This document shows, piece after piece, positions 3,192 to 60,674 of a DNA stretch of 64,000 nucleotides. Made by a program: the position numbers and the translations under genes. The stretch is from positions 992,001 to 1,056,000 of the forward strand of contig JANQPF010000009.1 in NCBI GenBank assembly GCA_028285415.1, given 5' to 3'. Source of the stretch: Pseudomonadales bacterium (GTDB lineage Bacteria > Pseudomonadota > Gammaproteobacteria > Pseudomonadales > Azotimanducaceae). Position 1 is the first letter of the stretch. Each line of letters begins with the position of its first letter. Below the pieces are notes generated by a model. The model had not been told where the DNA came from. It searched no databases and was given only the letters and a program-made list of their open reading frames with translations.

Positions 3192-4571
3192 ATGCCTCCA
3201 AGCCCACCCTCCCGCGACGACATTGCGGCACTCTTCGAACGACACTCGTCACGCTACGCCACCGTGGCCTTCGTCGACTTGCAGGGCCAACTGCGCGGTA
3301 AGACGGTCAACGCCGAGAAACTCCTGAGCGGCTTTCCCGACGGCGTGCCGTTTTCGCCGCTGAACATGATGCTCGACTATGGCGACCACACGCTGTTTCC
3401 CCGCGGCTACCTCACGCCCGATCTCGACGTGGCAGACAATCCATGCGATATCGACTGGCAGCATCCCCGCACCCTGCCGTTCGAAGACGAGGCATCTGCG
3501 CTTTTCTTCTTTGCACAGTTTGCCGACGACACCCAGGGTGCCGGATGGGATCCGCGACGGCTCTACGACCAGGTGGCGCAGCGGGCCGCTGCTATGGATC
3601 TCAGTCCGGTATACGGTCTCGAGTACGAATACCGCCTGCTCGACGAAAATCCGCAGACGCTGCGCGACAAACGGTTCACAGCCATCAGTCTGGTCAGCGA
3701 CGTCTCCACCTACGGCGGCGTCATGCATCAGAGCGTGTGGTCGGAGTTTTTCAAAGACATGCGCAACATGTGCGACGAGATGTCGGTGAAGGTTGCGAGC
3801 ATGCACTGGGAAGTGGCCGCTGCGATGGGTGAGGTTGCCCTGCAGCATCAAGCGGGCGTCAGCGCGCTCGATGACGCGGTGCTCTTCAAGACGCATGCCA
3901 AAGTGCTCGCCAAGCACCACAACCTCACGATGACGTTCATGGCCCGGCCGCTTGCGGACGATGACGGTCAGAGCGGGCACGTACATGTCTCGCTCGTCAA
4001 CGGCGCGGGCGATAACGTCTTTCACGACGCCAGCGCCGAACATGGCATGAGCACAACCCAGCGGCACTTCATCGGCGGATTGCAAAAGCACCTGCCGGAG
4101 ATCCTGCTCATGATGGCGCCGAACATCAATTCGTTTAAGCGTTTTGTGCCCGGCATCTTTGCCCCTACCCGCGCCGACTGGGGCATCGAAAACCGGACGA
4201 CCGCCATTCGAGTGCTGCCGGGAACGCCGAAATCACAGCGCCTGGAACTGCGCATCCCGGGATCCGACAGCAACCCCTATCTCGTCGCTGCAGCGCTCCT
4301 GGCAGCGGGTCTGCATGGGATCAGTGAAGGTATCGACCCGGCACCAGCGGTCAGCGGCGCCAGCCACCTCAACAAAAAGGCACCAGCAAGCCAGAAGCTA
4401 CCCACGGGATTTGCAGACGCTATCCAACGCTTTGAAAAGTCGGCGTTTGCACGCGAGCAATTTGGTGATGACTTCGTCCAGATGTTCGCCGGCACGCGCC
4501 GCGCGCAGTTGGAAGAATTCGCAAAAATGGTTACCGACAAGGAGCTCGAGCGGTTCCTCGAGCATGCCTGA
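3192..4571 (+). CDS. Glutamine synthetase family protein (GS-like gamma-glutamyl ligase)
   Basis: A 459-residue protein from ATG 3192 (MPPSPPSRDD). In order it has an N-terminal beta-grasp-like domain (VAFVDLQGQLRGKTV, LNMMLDYGDH), then the catalytic core with YGLEYEYRLL, the ATP-site segment GHVHVSL, and the metal/glutamate segments NRTTAIRV and RLELRIPGSDSNPYL. These are hallmark glutamine synthetase motifs. The diverged N-terminus and the lack of the adenylylation-site tyrosine context of GlnA suggest a GS-like ligase, which joins glutamate to ammonia or an amine such as a polyamine using ATP. The substrate cannot be read from sequence. An upstream in-frame ATG (3153) exists but lies in non-conserved sequence. 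It converges with the PhyH gene, leaving a 3 bp gap. Confidence 0.85.
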   Translation: MPPSPPSRDDIAALFERHSSRYATVAFVDLQGQLRGKTVNAEKLLSGFPDGVPFSPLNMMLDYGDHTLFPRGYLTPDLDVADNPCDIDWQHPRTLPFEDEASALFFFAQFADDTQGAGWDPRRLYDQVAQRAAAMDLSPVYGLEYEYRLLDENPQTLRDKRFTAISLVSDVSTYGGVMHQSVWSEFFKDMRNMCDEMSVKVASMHWEVAAAMGEVALQHQAGVSALDDAVLFKTHAKVLAKHHNLTMTFMARPLADDDGQSGHVHVSLVNGAGDNVFHDASAEHGMSTTQRHFIGGLQKHLPEILLMMAPNINSFKRFVPGIFAPTRADWGIENRTTAIRVLPGTPKSQRLELRIPGSDSNPYLVAAALLAAGLHGISEGIDPAPAVSGASHLNKKAPASQKLPTGFADAIQRFEKSAFAREQFGDDFVQMFAGTRRAQLEEFAKMVTDKELERFLEHA

Positions 4572-4574
4572 AGG

Positions 4575-5462
4575 TCAGTCGAAGAGCCCCCGGGGGTTCT
4601 CCGCCATCAACGTAAAGTCCGGACCCTCACGCTGCCAGCCATAGGGCTGATTCTCCGCCAGAAGCCTGCCGAAGCGCGGATTGTTGGTATGGCGCGAGAG
4701 CACCGCCTGCGGCGTTACGCCTTTGTGACGCTCCTGCGTTTGTAAGTACCGGCGCGCAAAGTACACCGCAAGATTCATCCGGATACCCTCGATCCGGCGG
4801 GCAAACGAGCCGTGCCAGGTGTTGCCGTGCCAGACGACCGCGTCCCCCGGCTCGAGATCCATCGCAACCGCGCGGGGATTGAAGTTGTCGTGCTCGAGCC
4901 GTGATTCGCGTGCTGTCGGCGGGCGCGCCAGGTGGTGACTGCCGGGAACCAGCGCAAGCGCACCGGCTTCCCGGCTGTATTCGGTGAGCGCGTAGTTGAC
5001 GTTGGCTACCTGACTGTAAGCCGGGAACGGACTCGGCATGCCGTTGCCGTTGTCCGAATGCAGCGGCAGAGGCACGCCGCCAGGGCCTTTGAAGTGGCAA
5101 CCGAGGCTCGACAGCAGACAGCTTTCGCCGAGCAGATAGGTGATCAGGGCCAGCGGCTTCGGTTCGAGAAGCACACGTTCGAACACCTCGTCCTCGTAGA
5201 GCAGGTAGGGCAAATACTGCATCCCTTCGAAGTCTTCTGCGGTGGCCGTATCAGGATCGATGCGCCGCCCCGTATCTGTCTCGACCCTCTCGAGAATCGC
5301 CGCCTTGGCACACGCGACACTCGCCTCGTCCAACACGCCGGGGATGACGGTATAGCCCTGAGTTTCGAGCTCCAACACGTTCGCCTCGAGGCCAAGGTCG
5401 CGAATCTCCTCGAGAATGCGCGCCTGCGCGGCGTCACTGCCCGTTGCGACGGTTTCCGACAT
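4575..5462 (-). CDS. Phytanoyl-CoA dioxygenase (PhyH) family protein
   Basis: A 295-residue non-haem Fe(II)/2-oxoglutarate oxygenase. The iron-binding facial triad is visible as HSD (in PLPLHSDNGNG, about residue 135) and the distal His in VVWHGNTWHGSF, followed by an Arg typical of 2-oxoglutarate binding. The N-terminal GYTVIPGVLD motif is also typical of the PhyH superfamily. Members hydroxylate fatty-acyl or small-molecule substrates; the substrate here is unknown. The ATG start at 5462 directly follows a short intergenic region shared with the DUF2207 gene on the same strand. Downstream it converges with the GS-like gene. Confidence 0.85.
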   Translation of the reverse strand: MSETVATGSDAAQARILEEIRDLGLEANVLELETQGYTVIPGVLDEASVACAKAAILERVETDTGRRIDPDTATAEDFEGMQYLPYLLYEDEVFERVLLEPKPLALITYLLGESCLLSSLGCHFKGPGGVPLPLHSDNGNGMPSPFPAYSQVANVNYALTEYSREAGALALVPGSHHLARPPTARESRLEHDNFNPRAVAMDLEPGDAVVWHGNTWHGSFARRIEGIRMNLAVYFARRYLQTQERHKGVTPQAVLSRHTNNPRFGRLLAENQPYGWQREGPDFTLMAENPRGLFD

Positions 5463-5501
5463 GACTCCTCCTGCCCTTAATCTAAAACCTGTGCCGGGCG
5501 G

Positions 5502-7181
5502 CTACCAGCCGCCACCCCCGCCGCCACCACCGCCGCCACCGCTGAAGCCGCCTCCACCACCGCCCGACGACGATCCCGGCGGCGTTGCAGCTGAGGCGAT
5601 CGCTGAGCTGAACGTCGATCCGACGTTCTTTGCAAACGTTGCCGGGCGATGCGGATCAAACGCGCCGCTGTACCAGACCGGCTGATAAGGGTGGCCGCTG
5701 TCCGATAGACGGCTGAAAACCTCACTGAACTGCTCTGCCCACTCGTTCTCCACACCAAGGGCAAGCGCAAACGGCAGGTAGCGCTCGAACAGCTGAGGCG
5801 TCTTTTCCGGAGGATGCCGAGCCGCAAGATCGTCCTGCTCTGCCACCTCGAGATACATCTTGAATCCTTCGAGTTGATCGAGCAGCAGGCGGCCGCGGAC
5901 CGTCGGTGCTTTCAACAGAAAAACGAACACACCGTGAACAATCGCGCTGACGCCGAACAAAGCGATCCCGAGGAACGTGACGGGCAGGCTGATGACCCCC
6001 ACAATCAGGACCACGAGGCTGATGCCTATGCTCGGCAGCACGTAACCCGAGTTCTTTTTGAAGTAATCGCCGAGATAATCACGTCGCAGTGATTTTTTGT
6101 GCGCGGCTCGCGCCGCACCGATTGTGGCATGGTGCTCGTCGCTCACTGCCAACACAGGACCCTTGGTAAAAAGCCTGGACTTCAGCGCCGCTTCCCCGGG
6201 CGCCAGCGGCTCGTCAGAGGGTGTCTCTTTCAGGACATAATCGGAGCGATCACTCTGCTCGATCTCAACGTGGCCTTTCACCGCGAGATTGATCACCGCG
6301 GCGCTGAACGTCAGCGGATCGTATGCCATGCGGGAAACGTAGCGCGCGGAAGCTGGAGAATAGTCCGCTGGTGGTTCATAGCGGGCAAAGATGACGCCCG
6401 CCTGCGGATCGCGCCCGACCCGCGACCAGACGATCAACAACCAGATGAGGGAACCACAGAGCGCCAGACCATTGGCGAACGTAAGGGCGTTATCCGAAAG
6501 AAAGTAGCGGAGCTCCTGTTGCCAGTCGGGCTCGGTTACCACACCTTTCGGCCACTCCACCACAATCGACAGACCCTCGCGGGCGCCCAGCACCCGCGTG
6601 CTGCGGATCGTGGCAACGTTCCCGAGGCTCGACGCTTCGTACGCCTGCCCGGTGTCACCATATCTGCCGGTGAAACCCGCAACGCTCGCGACTTCCGCTC
6701 CCGCCGGCAGCGTCACCGAGGCGCTGACCGCATCGATGGGAAATATCCAGCCATGCCCCGTGACGTTCCAATAGAGCTCGTCATGGTCGAGAAAAAAACC
6801 AAGCTGCCGGTCGGTGCGATATCGGATTTCGTATACGTAAACGCCCGGATCGAGGAACACGTCCTGTTGCCCGACATAGACACGGACGCCGTTCGACCGA
6901 CGCTCGTCGAACCAGTTCTCGGTCAGGCCGTCACGTCGGACGGCTATCGGTTCAAACGCCACACGGTAGCGATTTCCGAACGCATCTTCGTAGCGGGTCG
7001 GGAAATCACGGTATATCCCGCGTCTGATCTCCCGCCCCTCTGCCTGGACGGTGATCGTCTCCAACACCTCCATGCTGCCATCGTCGAGCACCGTAATGTC
7101 GCTCTTGAACTCGAGAATCCGTTCGTCTGCGAACGCCTGACCCGCAACGAAGAGCAGCAGAAGAAGCAGGCGGCTGATCAC
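5502..7181 (-). CDS. DUF2207 membrane protein with glycine-rich C-terminus
   Basis: A 559-residue protein with a cleavable signal (LLLLLLFVAGQAFA), a large extracytoplasmic beta-rich domain of about 220 residues, a transmembrane helix near 230-250, and a second pair of helices around residues 380-420. It ends in a cytoplasmic domain finishing in an almost pure glycine tail (FSGGGG... ending W). This architecture and tail are diagnostic of DUF2207 ('predicted membrane protein, LemA-associated'). It starts with GTG at 7181; the GTGA overlaps the TGA of the upstream lemA-like gene by 4 bp, so translation is probably coupled. The function of DUF2207/LemA pairs is not established; envelope-stress roles have been suggested for LemA. 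Confidence 0.88.
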   Translation of the reverse strand: MISRLLLLLLFVAGQAFADERILEFKSDITVLDDGSMEVLETITVQAEGREIRRGIYRDFPTRYEDAFGNRYRVAFEPIAVRRDGLTENWFDERRSNGVRVYVGQQDVFLDPGVYVYEIRYRTDRQLGFFLDHDELYWNVTGHGWIFPIDAVSASVTLPAGAEVASVAGFTGRYGDTGQAYEASSLGNVATIRSTRVLGAREGLSIVVEWPKGVVTEPDWQQELRYFLSDNALTFANGLALCGSLIWLLIVWSRVGRDPQAGVIFARYEPPADYSPASARYVSRMAYDPLTFSAAVINLAVKGHVEIEQSDRSDYVLKETPSDEPLAPGEAALKSRLFTKGPVLAVSDEHHATIGAARAAHKKSLRRDYLGDYFKKNSGYVLPSIGISLVVLIVGVISLPVTFLGIALFGVSAIVHGVFVFLLKAPTVRGRLLLDQLEGFKMYLEVAEQDDLAARHPPEKTPQLFERYLPFALALGVENEWAEQFSEVFSRLSDSGHPYQPVWYSGAFDPHRPATFAKNVGSTFSSAIASAATPPGSSSGGGGGGFSGGGGGGGGGGGW

Positions 7182-34776: not shown

Positions 34777-35529
34777 TCAGCCCCCAAGCTCAGCGAGCTT
34801 ACTCTTGAGCGCCTTGAGCGCGCTGATGTTCGCGTTCTTGATTGTCTCCATGGCCGGCGCTTCCACGCTGATGTCACCCAGCTCGGCCAGCACCGTGTGC
34901 ACGGTGTCGTGTTCGCGGACCTGTTTCATCGTCTCGAGCCAGCCCATGACGTTGGGGAAGTCGCCGAAGTCGTAAACGTTTGTGAACCCCGCCTGCAGCT
35001 GACCAATCTCGACGTAGGCCGCAAAGTCGGCGATGCTGAGGTGCTCACCCGTAAGGTACGTGTTGCCCTCCAGCCAGCCGCCGTTCAGCGCCTTCAGCGC
35101 GCTGGTGAGCGTCGCCCGCGCCTGATCCTGGAACGCCTGGGGGATATCGAGATCTTTGCGGATTTTCGGTGCCACCAGACCAACGGATGCGTCACGCACG
35201 TTGCGGTGATGGAAGTTGAGATACCAGTCGACCTTCGCTCGCGCCTGAGGCTCGCCCGGATAAACGTCTTCCCAGCCGTGCTTGTTGCAGAGATACGCCA
35301 TGATGGCGTGGGCCTCTCCGAGCGTGAAGCCGTTCGCTTCTTCGATCGTCGGGATGGTTCCAGCGGGATTTTTTGCGAGAAACGCCGGGTTGCGGCTGCC
35401 GTTGTCCCCCTTGGATCCCGGGTTGGTCAGGATCATCTCGAAAGGTTCGCTTTTGTAGAGCATCAGCCACATGACCGCACGGACCGGCTGTGAAAACGGC
35501 ACTCCATAGAGTTTCAGCGTATCGCTCAT
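34777..35529 (-). CDS. Glutathione S-transferase family protein
   Basis: A 250-residue GST from ATG 35529, which has GGGGGGA 4 bases upstream; a 9-residue extension from an earlier start lacks support. The thioredoxin fold starts LKLYGVPFSQPVRAVMWLMLYKSEPFEMIL. AGTIPTIEEANGFTLGEAHAIMAYLC supplies the cis-Pro and the Glu-x-x-Ala glutathione site. The C-terminal helical domain includes LTGEHLSIADFAAYVE, the N-capping box. It conjugates or reduces an unknown substrate with glutathione. It is transcribed away from the selenoprotein gene and lies upstream of the 34148-34774 gene by 2 bp. Confidence 0.88.
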   Translation of the reverse strand: MSDTLKLYGVPFSQPVRAVMWLMLYKSEPFEMILTNPGSKGDNGSRNPAFLAKNPAGTIPTIEEANGFTLGEAHAIMAYLCNKHGWEDVYPGEPQARAKVDWYLNFHHRNVRDASVGLVAPKIRKDLDIPQAFQDQARATLTSALKALNGGWLEGNTYLTGEHLSIADFAAYVEIGQLQAGFTNVYDFGDFPNVMGWLETMKQVREHDTVHTVLAELGDISVEAPAMETIKNANISALKALKSKLAELGG

Positions 35530-35604
35530 GATTTCCCCCCTGATTCGAGCCGGCAATTATACGCACAAAGCATGCTAGGCTGTGTGCGACGACCAGGAGG
35601 ATCC

Positions 35605-36135
35605 ATGGCACGAATCAGACTCATGACCGACGACGAGCTACCCGCAGAAAGGCTGGAGCAGGTTCAAGGGGTCGAAGCATCAGGCGCTGACGCGTCGGTA
35701 CTGCGGGCAGTGGCACACCTCCCTGACATGTTCGACGCCTACTTCTCCTTTTACTATCCGGCGCATCAGGCTGGCATCGTCGAGCCCGATCTGAAAGAGC
35801 TCGTGCGGCTGAAAATCGCCCGGCTGAACGACTGCTTCACGTGACTCAATGCGCGATTTCCATCGGCGATGGAAAACGGACTGACCGAAGCGAAGATTTC
35901 CGAATTGGATACGCCGAGCAATTCTTACAGCAAGCGCGAAAGGCTGGCGCTGGAATACGCCGAACGATTGGCGGTAGACCACCACAACATCGACGACGCG
36001 TTTTTCGCGCGCCTGCATGACGTATTCAACGACGCCGAGGTGCTCGAGCTCGGCATGATGATCGGTCAGTACATCGGCTTCGGGCGTCTCTTGAAAGTAC
36101 TGGACCTCGAACCGAAATACTGTCCCACCGAATAG
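35605..36135 (+). CDS. Candidate selenoprotein: AhpD/carboxymuconolactone-decarboxylase-like with CxxU
   Basis: ATG 35605 (AGGAGG ribosome binding site at 35594-35599) opens a frame that meets TGA at codon 80 (35842-35844) and continues without interruption to TAG 36133-36135, giving 176 residues if the TGA is read. The context is LNDCFT-(TGA)-LNARF. In this alpha-helical family two redox cysteines form CxxC, and the TGA occupies the second one (Cys77, Sec80). Downstream sequence LALEYAERLAVDHHNIDDAFFARLHDVFND and VLELGMMIGQYIGFGRL is plainly the second half of the same domain. A perfect hairpin follows 12 nt after TGA (listed separately). The protein may be a thiol/selenol peroxidase-like reductase. 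Confidence 0.8.
35857..35875 (+). promoter_or_regulatory. Candidate bacterial SECIS hairpin downstream of the in-frame TGA
   Basis: TTTCCATC (35857-35864), loop GGC (35865-35867), GATGGAAA (35868-35875): an 8-bp perfect stem with a tri-nucleotide loop. It starts 12 nt after the TGA codon, and the apical G lies 21 nt from it. Known bacterial SECIS elements recognised by SelB lie within roughly this distance and carry G in a small apical loop. It lies inside the coding frame, as bacterial SECIS elements do. Confidence 0.75.
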
Positions 36136-56734: not shown

Positions 56735-56786
56735 CCGCACGGCATCAACCAAGGTTTTGCAAGGGAAATTTGCAAGGGGAGAAAAG

Positions 56787-59700
56787 ATGAACGCACGAAG
56801 AAATACATCCCGGCTGCGCTGCTGCGTCTGCCTCGCCGCACTGGTGTTCGCGCTGCCCGGCTGGGCTGCTGTCACGCCAACCGGAACGGTTGTCACCGTC
56901 GGCGGCGACCCGGCTGACGACGGGCCGGTGGCACCAACTCCCGGCGATCTGCTGGTGCCAGTGTCCGATCTGATCCTGGTGGGCGATCTGTCCTCTCTGA
57001 TCATCGATGGATCATCGTTCGTCCAGGCTGGCGGTATCGCCACCGACATCCTCTCCACCGGCAGCACCATCACCATCACGGGCACTGGCACGCGTGTGGA
57101 GGCGCTCGGTACCGGCGCTCGATTCAGTCTTTCCGGCGTCAGCACCGCATCAATTCTGGACGGCGCGGTGTTCGACGCCAGCGACACGACCGGATGCACC
57201 GCTAGCGGCTCGTGTGTCGTCACCATCGGCGCCGTGTCCGGATCAGATGCCACCCTGACCGTTTCCGGCGTCGGCAGCGTGCTTGATGCCACGGCCGGCC
57301 CGGTGGGGAGCCTCGTTGTCGGGATTGCCAACGTTGCAGGTACGCCCGTTGCCGATGCGGTGGGCCGCTTGATCGTCGAAGACGGCGGCGTGGTGAACGC
57401 CGCAGGCACCGCCTTTGCACAGGGTACTTTTGGCGGGACGACACCCGTCAGCCGCGGCTTTCTGGAGGTGCGCAACGCGGGTTCGCAGTTCAACGCAAGC
57501 TCAATCATTCTCGGCAACAACTTCGCACCGGTCGACAACGGCGTTGCATCGATCACGGTAGAGGACCAGGGCGCCGTCAGCGTGCTCGGCGCGGTCGTTG
57601 CAGGCCTGGGTGACAACACGGACGCTACGATCAGCGTAACCACCGGCGCTACGTTCGATGCGCTGGCGGTTTATGGGTCCAGGGGCACCGCATCGGTCAG
57701 CGACATCAGCTTCGATGGCGCAGGGACTGTCGCAACGATCGGTGACGAGCTTGTCATCGGTCAGGGCAGCACCAGCAACTTGAGTATCACTAACGGCGCG
57801 GTCGTGAACATCGGCGGCGGCACTGAAACCGGATTCATCGGCAGCAGCCTGACGCTGGGCACCCAAGGCGGTACCGGGACGGGTCTGATCGACAACGCAA
57901 CGGTGACGATCGGACCGAATACCGACATGCCTGAGGTCCGCCTCTCCATTGGCGTCCTCGGCACGGGTGACCTGACCATACAGAACGGCGCTTCCGTCAC
58001 CGTACAGGATCTGACCGGCGGTCTCGGTATCGTGGGTGACGGCGTCACCGTCGGCGAATCGGCACCGGGAATCGCCGCCGCAGGCACGCTCGTCGTCCAG
58101 GGGGCGGGGACCAACCTCACAGTCGACAGCATCGACGGCAGCGCGCTCGTTGCCGGCATAGCCACCAATGGCGTCGATGCCGCCACCGGATCCATCGACA
58201 TCCTGGACGGCGCCACCGTCTCGATTTCCGGGACCGGACTCAACTCCGGCATCAACCTCGGACGGGGCGGTAACAGCAGCGGGACGTTGAACGTATCGGG
58301 TAGCGGCACCTCGCTGGACGTCACCGGCCCGCAGGGCATCATCGCCATCGCGTCGAATTTCGGCGGCGCCGTCGGTGATACCGACGCGCGGATGACCGTC
58401 ACGGACGGTGCACGCGTCACGCTCGCGGGACTGACCCCCGGGCAAGGTTTTTTCAGCGTCGGCAACGGTGCCGGCAATGGCGAGCTGGAGGTCAATACCG
58501 GCGGTACGATCGACATCGACGGTTTCCTGCGCATTTCGGTGGACAACGCCAACGGCAATACGCAGACCGGTCTGGTCACGGTCAGTGACACCGGCACCAT
58601 CAACACCACCAACATCGAAATCGGCAATCGAGGCCTTCTCACAGGTAACGGGACGGTCACCGCGGACGTGCTGGACGTGCTGTCCGGCGGCAGCGTCGAC
58701 CTCGAAAGTCTGGATGGTATCGGCACCATCAATCTCAGCGGGGGCAGCTACTCCGCACCCGCCGGTGCTTTCGACATCGGCGCCAGCGGCGACCAGACCT
58801 TCAACCTGACAAACGGCGGCACGCTCTCAGCGCCGGCTGAGGCGACAGTTGGTGGTTCGGGTTTCGCCGGTGCGCTCGCAATCAGCGGATCCGGCTCTCT
58901 CTTCGATGCCGGCGGCGCCGTGACCGTCAACGATCGCCTGAGCCTCGACGCCGGCGGACGACTGCAGAGCACGGGAGACGTTCTCATCGCTGACGGCGGT
59001 TTCCTGTTCGGCGACGGCGGCACGCTTGCAGCGGTCAGAACCACGGTAGGCACCGGTGGCCGCATCGGACCCGGCAACTCTCCCGGCACGCTCGACATCA
59101 CAGGCGACTTCACGCTCGACGGAGGCACGCTCGAGTTCGAGTTCGCTGGTTTCAACCCAGGTGAGTTCGACGTCATCAACGTCGATGGCAACGTCGATCT
59201 GTTGAGCGGCACGGTATCAGTTGCCCTGCTGGACGGCTTCAACCCGGGCGGACGAAGTTTCGACGTTCTCAGCGCAACCGGTGTCCTCAGCGTCAGCCCG
59301 GGCGTGACGTTTCTGAGCTCGGGTCCCGGCCCCGACTTCGAATTTTCGACCCGCAGCGACGGAGGCATCGACTACGGCACGATCACGTTCACGGCTCGCG
59401 ACGTTGCGACGGCAACCGGATTGTCCATTCTGCAGCAGAACACGGCCGTCTATCTGGATGCCGTCTGTCCGCGGGTCGAAGGTTTGACCACACCGTCGGC
59501 AGACGCGCTGGATCTGGATATGCGCTGCGGCAACCTGCGCAGCAGCGCCACTTCCGACGCCCAGGTGGCAAACGCTCTCGAACAGATGACGCCCGATGAG
59601 GTTGTGGGCACGTTCACCGGTCTGGTGCGTCTTGCCCCACTGCAGCACGGCAACCTGGCCCGACGGCTGAACGGGCTTCGCAGCGGCGCCAGCAGGGTCG

Positions 59701-60674
59701 ACATCGGTAATCTCAATATCGTGACCGAAAACGCCCAGGTATCTGGAGAGGCGCTGCAGGACGTCCTCGAGAAGCTTTCCCAGCAGGAGTTCGGCCGTTG
59801 GGGCTTTTTCAGCGAGGGACGCGTGAACTTCGGCGAGCGCGGCGACACCCGTCGCTCACCGGGATACGACTTCAACACCACGGCGCTGACCGTGGGCACC
59901 GATTACAAGCTGCGCGACAACCTGTTTCTCGGCGCAGCCGTGGGCTACAACGAATCTGACGCCGACTACGACGTTGGCGGCGGTGCCGCGATGCAGTCTT
60001 ACTCACTCTCCCTGCTCGGCACCTACTTCCGGGGGGATTCGTTTTACGTCGACTCACTCGTCACATACGCATCAACCGACATAGAAACCGACCGTCGTAT
60101 CGTCTACGAAGACTTCGCCGGGGCCGTCGATCGCAAAGCGCGCGGCGACACCGACGGCGACCAGTGGGCGTTTGGTCTCGGCAGCGGCTTCGATTTCACG
60201 CGCGGGCGTTGGGTATGGGGTCCGCATGCGGGCGTCAACTACTCCGACACGCGGATCGACGGGTTCCACGAAACCGGCGCCGGCGGTCTGAATCTGGCCA
60301 TGCCGGACACCGCCTACCGCTCGCTTACCGCCAACGCCGGCTTGCACGCATCGGTCACCCTCACGCCAAGCTGGGGGGTGGTCGTTCCTTACGCACAGGT
60401 CGACTTTGTCCGCGAATACAAAAACGGCAGCGAAAGCGAACGTATCCGGTTCGTCCAGGACACCTTCAGCACGGATCCAACAAATCCCACGGCACCGCTG
60501 ACCGTCGAAAACGGCGGGATCGACGCCAATCACCTGTCCTGGGCGATTGGGGTACACCTGCAGCTCATCAACGGCATCGCCGGCTTCATCGACTATCGCG
60601 GGACCAGCGGCCTGCAGGAATTCGACGTGCACGAGATTGCGGCGGGACTGCGCTTCGAGCGCCGCCTGCCCTGA
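56787..60674 (+). CDS. Autotransporter adhesin-type outer-membrane protein
   Basis: A 1295-residue type Va autotransporter from ATG 56787, with AAGGGGAG 5 bases upstream. The signal sequence (CLAALVFALPGWA) is followed by a passenger of about 950 residues of parallel beta-helix repeats rich in Gly, Thr, Ser and Val (for example GTLNVSGSGTSLDV, GSPGTLDITGDFTLDG). A C-terminal beta-barrel of about 270 residues follows (WGFFSEGRVNFGERGD... to VHLQLINGIAGFIDYRGT). The last residues RFERRLP end without the usual terminal aromatic. Passenger function is unknown; adhesion is inferred from architecture only. No ECF-type promoter is seen directly upstream. Confidence 0.88.
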   Translation: MNARRNTSRLRCCVCLAALVFALPGWAAVTPTGTVVTVGGDPADDGPVAPTPGDLLVPVSDLILVGDLSSLIIDGSSFVQAGGIATDILSTGSTITITGTGTRVEALGTGARFSLSGVSTASILDGAVFDASDTTGCTASGSCVVTIGAVSGSDATLTVSGVGSVLDATAGPVGSLVVGIANVAGTPVADAVGRLIVEDGGVVNAAGTAFAQGTFGGTTPVSRGFLEVRNAGSQFNASSIILGNNFAPVDNGVASITVEDQGAVSVLGAVVAGLGDNTDATISVTTGATFDALAVYGSRGTASVSDISFDGAGTVATIGDELVIGQGSTSNLSITNGAVVNIGGGTETGFIGSSLTLGTQGGTGTGLIDNATVTIGPNTDMPEVRLSIGVLGTGDLTIQNGASVTVQDLTGGLGIVGDGVTVGESAPGIAAAGTLVVQGAGTNLTVDSIDGSALVAGIATNGVDAATGSIDILDGATVSISGTGLNSGINLGRGGNSSGTLNVSGSGTSLDVTGPQGIIAIASNFGGAVGDTDARMTVTDGARVTLAGLTPGQGFFSVGNGAGNGELEVNTGGTIDIDGFLRISVDNANGNTQTGLVTVSDTGTINTTNIEIGNRGLLTGNGTVTADVLDVLSGGSVDLESLDGIGTINLSGGSYSAPAGAFDIGASGDQTFNLTNGGTLSAPAEATVGGSGFAGALAISGSGSLFDAGGAVTVNDRLSLDAGGRLQSTGDVLIADGGFLFGDGGTLAAVRTTVGTGGRIGPGNSPGTLDITGDFTLDGGTLEFEFAGFNPGEFDVINVDGNVDLLSGTVSVALLDGFNPGGRSFDVLSATGVLSVSPGVTFLSSGPGPDFEFSTRSDGGIDYGTITFTARDVATATGLSILQQNTAVYLDAVCPRVEGLTTPSADALDLDMRCGNLRSSATSDAQVANALEQMTPDEVVGTFTGLVRLAPLQHGNLARRLNGLRSGASRVDIGNLNIVTENAQVSGEALQDVLEKLSQQEFGRWGFFSEGRVNFGERGDTRRSPGYDFNTTALTVGTDYKLRDNLFLGAAVGYNESDADYDVGGGAAMQSYSLSLLGTYFRGDSFYVDSLVTYASTDIETDRRIVYEDFAGAVDRKARGDTDGDQWAFGLGSGFDFTRGRWVWGPHAGVNYSDTRIDGFHETGAGGLNLAMPDTAYRSLTANAGLHASVTLTPSWGVVVPYAQVDFVREYKNGSESERIRFVQDTFSTDPTNPTAPLTVENGGIDANHLSWAIGVHLQLINGIAGFIDYRGTSGLQEFDVHEIAAGLRFERRLP

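Follow-up and report, generated by a model that had tools for sequence, protein, structure and literature searches.

A predicted selenocysteine codon in a CMD/AhpD-like protein gene of a Pseudomonadales bacterium

Does a TGA codon that interrupts an otherwise continuous reading frame end one protein, or does it specify selenocysteine (Sec) within a longer one? This question is raised by a locus at positions 35605-36135 (+) of a 64,000-nucleotide (nt) stretch from the genome of a Pseudomonadales bacterium (assembly GCA_028285415.1, contig JANQPF010000009.1), referred to here as the window. On comparative sequence evidence, the locus is almost certainly a single gene for a protein of the carboxymuconolactone decarboxylase (CMD)/AhpD-like fold, with the TGA read as a predicted Sec residue.

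A reading frame that continues across TGA

Translated with TGA as U, the locus yields 176 residues with one TGA (35842-35844), at codon 80, and ends with TAG at 36133-36135. The TGA occupies the second position of a CxxU motif, C77-F-T-U80, and Cys77 is encoded by TGC at 35833-35835. A Shine-Dalgarno-like AGGAGG (35595-35600) is located 4 nt 5' of the ATG at 35605, and inspection of the sequence revealed nothing resembling AGGAGG directly 5' of the internal ATG at 35869. Standard open reading frame (ORF) calling breaks the locus into two pieces, 35572-35844 (90 amino acids) and 35869-36135 (88 amino acids). An earlier note on this DNA had described a continuous frame with TGA at the second position of a CxxC motif (C77, U80) and had predicted that conventional annotation would split the gene; translation and the codons of relatives agree with the description, and ORF calling bears out the prediction. 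A single Pfam domain, PF02627 (CMD), covers residues 40 to 120 and thus spans the TGA (E value, 1e-7; 32.3 bits, with a cut-off of 23).

Relatives were collected by a scan of genome contigs, which gave 36 loci, and by searching 200 genomes from the window's family with the protein, 76 of which had a match at 1e-20. In the fetched loci spanning codon 80 (L043 and L044 do not span it and are outside the count), 57 of 64 rows had TGA at this codon and the other 7 had TGC, with no TAA or TAG among the 64, and Cys77 was present in every row as TGC or TGT. The rows include duplicates, since one genome can enter via both searches; they represent 47 distinct 51-nt stretches, 40 with TGA and 7 with TGC. 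The TGC rows (L028, L029, L030, L032, L034, L036, and L042) came from Sphingomonadaceae, Caulobacteraceae, another alphaproteobacterium, one Myxococcota bin, and one actinomycete. Within the bacterial family of the window, 61 matches at an E value of ≤1.2e-40, in 61 genomes including the window's own, each had one TGA as its sole in-frame stop; judged by these 61 of 61 strong matches, a predicted Sec is what this gene normally carries in the family. The 37 weaker family rows comprised 31 without a stop (29 to 35% identity), five with one TGA, and one fragment in genome G173. The gene is not a general feature of the class, since only 3 of 369 genomes in a class-wide sample matched at an E value of 1e-30: the window's own, G290 (two copies on contig C58, one TGA each), and G412 (no stop, with TGC at codon 80). 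A plasmid search matched 104 records, all at <60% identity, and the best of these (38%) has Cys at position 80.

Several distant CMD-like paralogues with one in-frame TGA were also observed, at G115:C223, G064:C94, G135:C2, G009:C73, G029:C269, and G290:C58 (two copies). In the four distant paralogues inspected (L091, L092, L100, and L102), the TGA was at the CxxU position, which suggests that these genes represent further selenoprotein subfamilies. The window's own genome encodes a paralogue with 30% identity (G000:C32:52754-53251; L089 and L101) that has a CxxC motif (TGT, TGC) and no SECIS-like (selenocysteine insertion sequence-like) stem at the corresponding place.

Constraint on either side of the TGA was compared using nonsynonymous (pN) and synonymous (pS) differences from 29 distinct relatives with >58% identity. 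Synonymous sites are near saturation, and only the contrast between pN and pS was used. Before the TGA, pN was 0.125 to 0.331 and pS was 0.639 to 0.966; over residues 92 to 175, which follow both the TGA and the hairpin described below, pN was 0.151 to 0.300 and pS was 0.522 to 0.990. By this measure, constraint is about equal in the two halves, unlike what would be expected for a true stop. In a tree built, like the structure alignment, from 39 rows, the distribution of Sec and Cys required three changes by parsimony, two of them forced by well-supported branches; this count is rough, given the open inner branches (14 of 36) and the long branch of L042. The Sec rows came from Gammaproteobacteria, Myxococcota, and one Rokubacteria bin. 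L020 (labelled Desulfobacterales) and L018 (Klebsiella pneumoniae) grouped inside the gammaproteobacterial rows and are probably mislabelled bins.

The SECIS-like hairpin and selenocysteine machinery

Downstream of the UGA, the RNA is predicted to fold into a SECIS-like hairpin (35857-35875) with an 8-bp stem (35857-35864/35868-35875) and a GGC triloop (35865-35867). The hairpin starts 12 nt and its loop 20 nt after the UGA, and its minimum free energy (MFE) is -10.5 kcal/mol. The bacterial SECIS (bSECIS) model, as given in a 2026 review, calls for a loop of 3 to 9 nt, a stem of 4 to 16 bp, G in the first two loop positions, a UGA-to-loop distance of 16 to 37 nt, and an MFE of ≤-7.5 (PMC13188914); the window hairpin agrees with every one of these rules. 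Across distinct 41-nt stretches from TGA relatives, 38 of 39 had an MFE of ≤-7.5, and the remaining one had an MFE of -7.4.

Covariation was assessed with 39 distinct TGA stretches of 42 nt. The seven inner base pairs held in 99.3% of the 273 cells (mean after shuffling, 73.2), two-sided changes were present in 74 cells compared with 21.3 after shuffling, and the covariation score was 0.777 compared with 0.300 for shuffles and ≤0.117 when the structure was slid along the alignment. The same 7-bp hairpin placed elsewhere in the stretch was paired at ≤0.60, compared with 0.99 at the real site. The stem sequence varies from group to group (UUCCAUC/GAUGGAA, UUCUGCA/UGCAGAA, and ACGCGUC/GACGCGU), and every one of the 39 TGA sequences has GGC or GGG as its loop. 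In the TGC relatives, only 21 of 49 stem cells were paired, and the hairpin is not kept. The TGA rows thus share a covarying SECIS-type hairpin at the right distance from the UGA.

The assembly that holds the window (5.97 Mb in 34 contigs; completeness, 99.03%; contamination, 3.19%) also carries the genes for Sec synthesis and insertion. Contig C4 has a cluster of tRNA-Sec (3571-3659; 73.6 bits, with a cut-off of 47), the adjoining selB (3703-5529; 408.8 bits), and selA (5568-6863; 523.4 bits), with both protein genes above their curated cut-offs. selD, likewise above its curated cut-off (271 bits), is on C21 inside a 729-codon open frame, the length of which suggests a fused form; Ndh-SelD fusion proteins have been described in the Global Ocean Sampling (GOS) report (PMC2398784). 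A separate feature of the C4 cluster is a phage-type integrase gene (PF00589, PF13356, and PF22022; 2229-3488, L088, in the window's genome, G000) directly downstream of tRNA-Sec. Islands sit at selC in Escherichia coli (PMC6174562), and the arrangement here is similar; no repeat of the last 14 to 22 bases of tRNA-Sec was found in the 12 kb searched. The 64-kb window itself yielded no tRNA genes and no Rfam matches at the gathering score.

Other readings of the UGA

A number of results weigh against a Sec codon at this site, and they bear chiefly on the possibility of a genuine stop at the TGA, which would make the locus a pseudogene or two short ORFs, as the 90- and 88-amino-acid ORFs would have it. 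In the window, 31 other TGAs also lie in frames that are open on both sides; these were listed by openness alone (at least 50 codons open before, at least 40 after, and no cover by a longer frame), and the TGA at 35842-35844 is excluded from the list because an opposite-strand frame covers it. An open frame around a TGA proves little alone. It is homology across this TGA that exceeds chance, since PF02627 spans it, relatives have TGA or TGC at the same codon, and all 61 strong family matches have one TGA.

Some genomes that carry the TGA gene lack detectable Sec genes. No selA was found at an E value of 1e-60 in 12 of the 61 carriers. Three of the 12 (G027, G074, and G107) have tRNA-Sec, and G027 and G074 also have a partial selA; in the other nine, a closer search at the thresholds applied detected neither selA nor selB nor tRNA-Sec, and the gene could be a relic in those genomes. 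Six of the nine (G127, G163, G102, G079, G143, and G117) are <90% complete, and G187, G087, and G104 are listed at 93 to 96%. For G127, genes that flank the sel cluster of G135 were found on C67 and on C10, where the nearest recognised match begins 413 bases into the contig, so the absence is likely due to a contig break. For G087, G104, and G163, a transporter-like gene near selB in G135 (named by eye) was not found either. Either a stretch may be missing from these assemblies or the sel genes may truly have been lost, leaving the gene as a relic; these carriers do not bear on the window's own genome. Carriage of the gene was also uncorrelated with selA in the family (49 of 61 carriers and 166 of 200 genomes overall have selA), and at these frequencies the comparison is uninformative. 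Finally, the G173 fragment (L104, contig C220), which aligns over residues 32 to 124 only, carries CGA in place of the Sec codon, with 6 of 7 stem pairs retained; it looks degraded and may reflect decay of a selenoprotein gene.

The hairpin evidence also has weaker elements. Considered alone, the window hairpin is energetically unexceptional in comparison with shuffles (z scores of -1.69 for 45 nt, -1.59 for 41 nt, and -0.71 and -1.01 for longer stretches). Two of five covariation measures did not separate from shuffles (pairs with a two-sided change, 7 versus 6.4; further pair types, 9 versus 10.7), and the shuffles do not keep relatedness. Nor did the neighbourhood help: flanking ORFs were clustered for the loci L009 to L041 that span codon 80, together with the window, and no conserved neighbour pointing to function emerged. 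The families found in at least five loci either consisted of ORFs overlapping the gene (13 and 10 loci) or were general metabolic genes (5 to 7 loci each, named by eye), and the neighbourhood was rejected as a functional clue for want of a conserved partner.

Against a true stop stand the recurrence of the same TGA in 57 of 64 rows with neither TAA nor TAG there, the constraint past it (pN of 0.15 to 0.30 versus pS of 0.52 to 0.99), the seven-pair hairpin that TGA rows, unlike TGC rows, preserve with compensatory changes, and the full Sec machinery of the genome; we consider a true stop very improbable. Marginally less probable still is that general recoding or near-cognate read-through inserts Trp, Cys, or some other residue at the UGA. 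The inserted residue cannot be told from translation tools alone, which leaves room for such decoding, but the TGC relatives have Cys at position 80, the genome has tRNA-Sec and all of selA, selB, and selD, the hairpin conforms to the bSECIS model, and the neighbouring genes are open under translation table 11. A base-calling error of TGC to TGA in this assembly would fit the TGC seen in 7 of 64 relatives, but its probability is negligible given the same TGA in many separately assembled genomes from several phyla and a SECIS-like hairpin that accompanies TGA and is missing from TGC relatives.

The earlier note had taken the TGA to encode Sec and had said that missing sel genes, a real stop in relatives, or a sequencing error would overturn this. 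The four machinery genes score above their cut-offs, the 64 rows show only the same TGA or a Cys codon, error is very unlikely, and the note's reading is supported by the sel genes, the codons of relatives, and the covarying hairpin. The computed support for a selenoprotein gene consists of a continuous and conserved frame, Sec machinery in the genome, a covarying SECIS-like hairpin, and a predicted fold; actual Sec insertion and peroxidase-like chemistry we infer. In the mechanism that we propose, ribosomes would start at 35605, SelB bound to the hairpin at 35857-35875 would deliver Sec-tRNA(Sec) at the UGA at 35842-35844, and translation would proceed to the TAG at 36133-36135. Cys77 and Sec80 would form a CxxU redox pair, probably alternating between selenol/thiol and selenenylsulfide states, in a hydroperoxidase- or thiol-oxidoreductase-like reaction.

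Fold, surroundings, and comparison with known families

The Pfam gathering score was reached, and the predicted fold likewise places the protein in the CMD/AhpD-like superfamily (PF02627). In the 39 aligned rows, E65, 12 residues before the first Cys, is invariant, as are C77 and position 80, the last counted as Cys or as TGA read as Cys (Sec is predicted there). Mycobacterium tuberculosis AhpD (1gu9 and 1knc) is 12% identical to the window protein; its active site contains CxxC, where the window protein has CxxU, and a catalytic His four residues after the second Cys. PA0269, Atu0492, and 2oyo have His at that position, where the window protein has Arg84 (codon at 35854-35856), as do all 64 of 64 rows. 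At this residue, the window protein departs from AhpD proper of the M. tuberculosis type. The assignment to AhpD-like/CMD proteins with a CxxC fold made in the earlier note thus stands as to the domain and the CxxU motif and is refined in that the His of solved relatives is replaced by Arg84.

Two features of the surrounding DNA may be recorded. A glutathione S-transferase gene (34777-35529, -) is divergent from the selenoprotein gene, with 75 bp between the ATG starts; in a search for this divergent gene together with a convergent beta-lactamase-fold gene, only the own-genome locus matched among 86 loci (E value, 1e-10). At 56757-60674 (+), a 1,305-amino-acid ORF, autotransporter-like by eye, is followed after a TGA by a same-frame ORF of 906 amino acids, and these look like two separate genes and not a second recoding.

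Ordinary ORF calling splits genes of this type, and selenium-dependent redox enzymes of uncultured bacteria consequently stay unseen. For this one, the computational case is close to complete, resting on the Sec genes, the codon, a covarying SECIS-like hairpin, and continued constraint after the UGA. Of 200 sampled genomes in one family, 61 have the gene, and the window protein reaches no NCBIfam cut-off; a curated (seleno)protein model could be built from it, and it could serve to test the role of Sec in a CMD fold without the usual His. We also entertain, as an improbable speculation, that these proteins form a distinct, unnamed subfamily of CMD-fold selenoenzymes, E-x11-CxxU-xxx-R, nearly always Sec in its own family. 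In such a subfamily, the selenol and Arg would stand in for the Cys-His arrangement of AhpD and open the way to chemistry other than the reduction of alkyl hydroperoxides, such as reductive dehalogenation like that of the debrominase Bmp8, a relative in fold. A literature search pairing Bmp8 with selenocysteine returned nothing relevant among the papers listed, and one pairing NCBIfam with selenoprotein returned only an unrelated match.

The best NCBIfam match of the window protein is NF053654, YciW-related (seleno)protein (E value, 5.7e-17), which all 39 members of set A1 matched at an E value of ≤0.001; at 62 bits compared with a cut-off of 310, the window protein belongs to a sister group and is not a member. 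It likewise scored 33.3 bits with TIGR01926, peroxidase-related enzyme (cut-off, 81.8; solved structures compared alongside were 2prr, 6k40, 2oyo, and PA0269 [2ijc, 2o4d, and 7xw1]), and 19.6 bits with NF041047, GSU3128 family (seleno)protein (cut-off, 110). The 39 rows gave no match to NF041238, another model from the review. The window protein thus falls below every NCBIfam cut-off among the models matched and has no named model at cut-off, within a CMD/AhpD-like CxxU kind that has been known since 2005. The Sargasso Sea survey of that year describes CxxU selenoproteins that are AhpD-like (27 sequences) or CMD domain containing (4 sequences) (PMC1088965), the 2008 GOS study describes AhpD-like 1 and AhpD-like 2 selenoproteins (PMC2398784), and the table of the 2026 review includes AhpD-like and CMD-like CxxU families (PMC13188914). 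The earlier note's statement that CxxU forms of AhpD-like proteins were reported from marine metagenomes matches the first two of these. Compared by description, the window gene resembles the Sargasso Sea and GOS AhpD-like and CMD selenoproteins in its CMD/AhpD domain, its CxxU motif, and its predicted SECIS element with G in the apical loop (PMC1088965 and PMC2398784).
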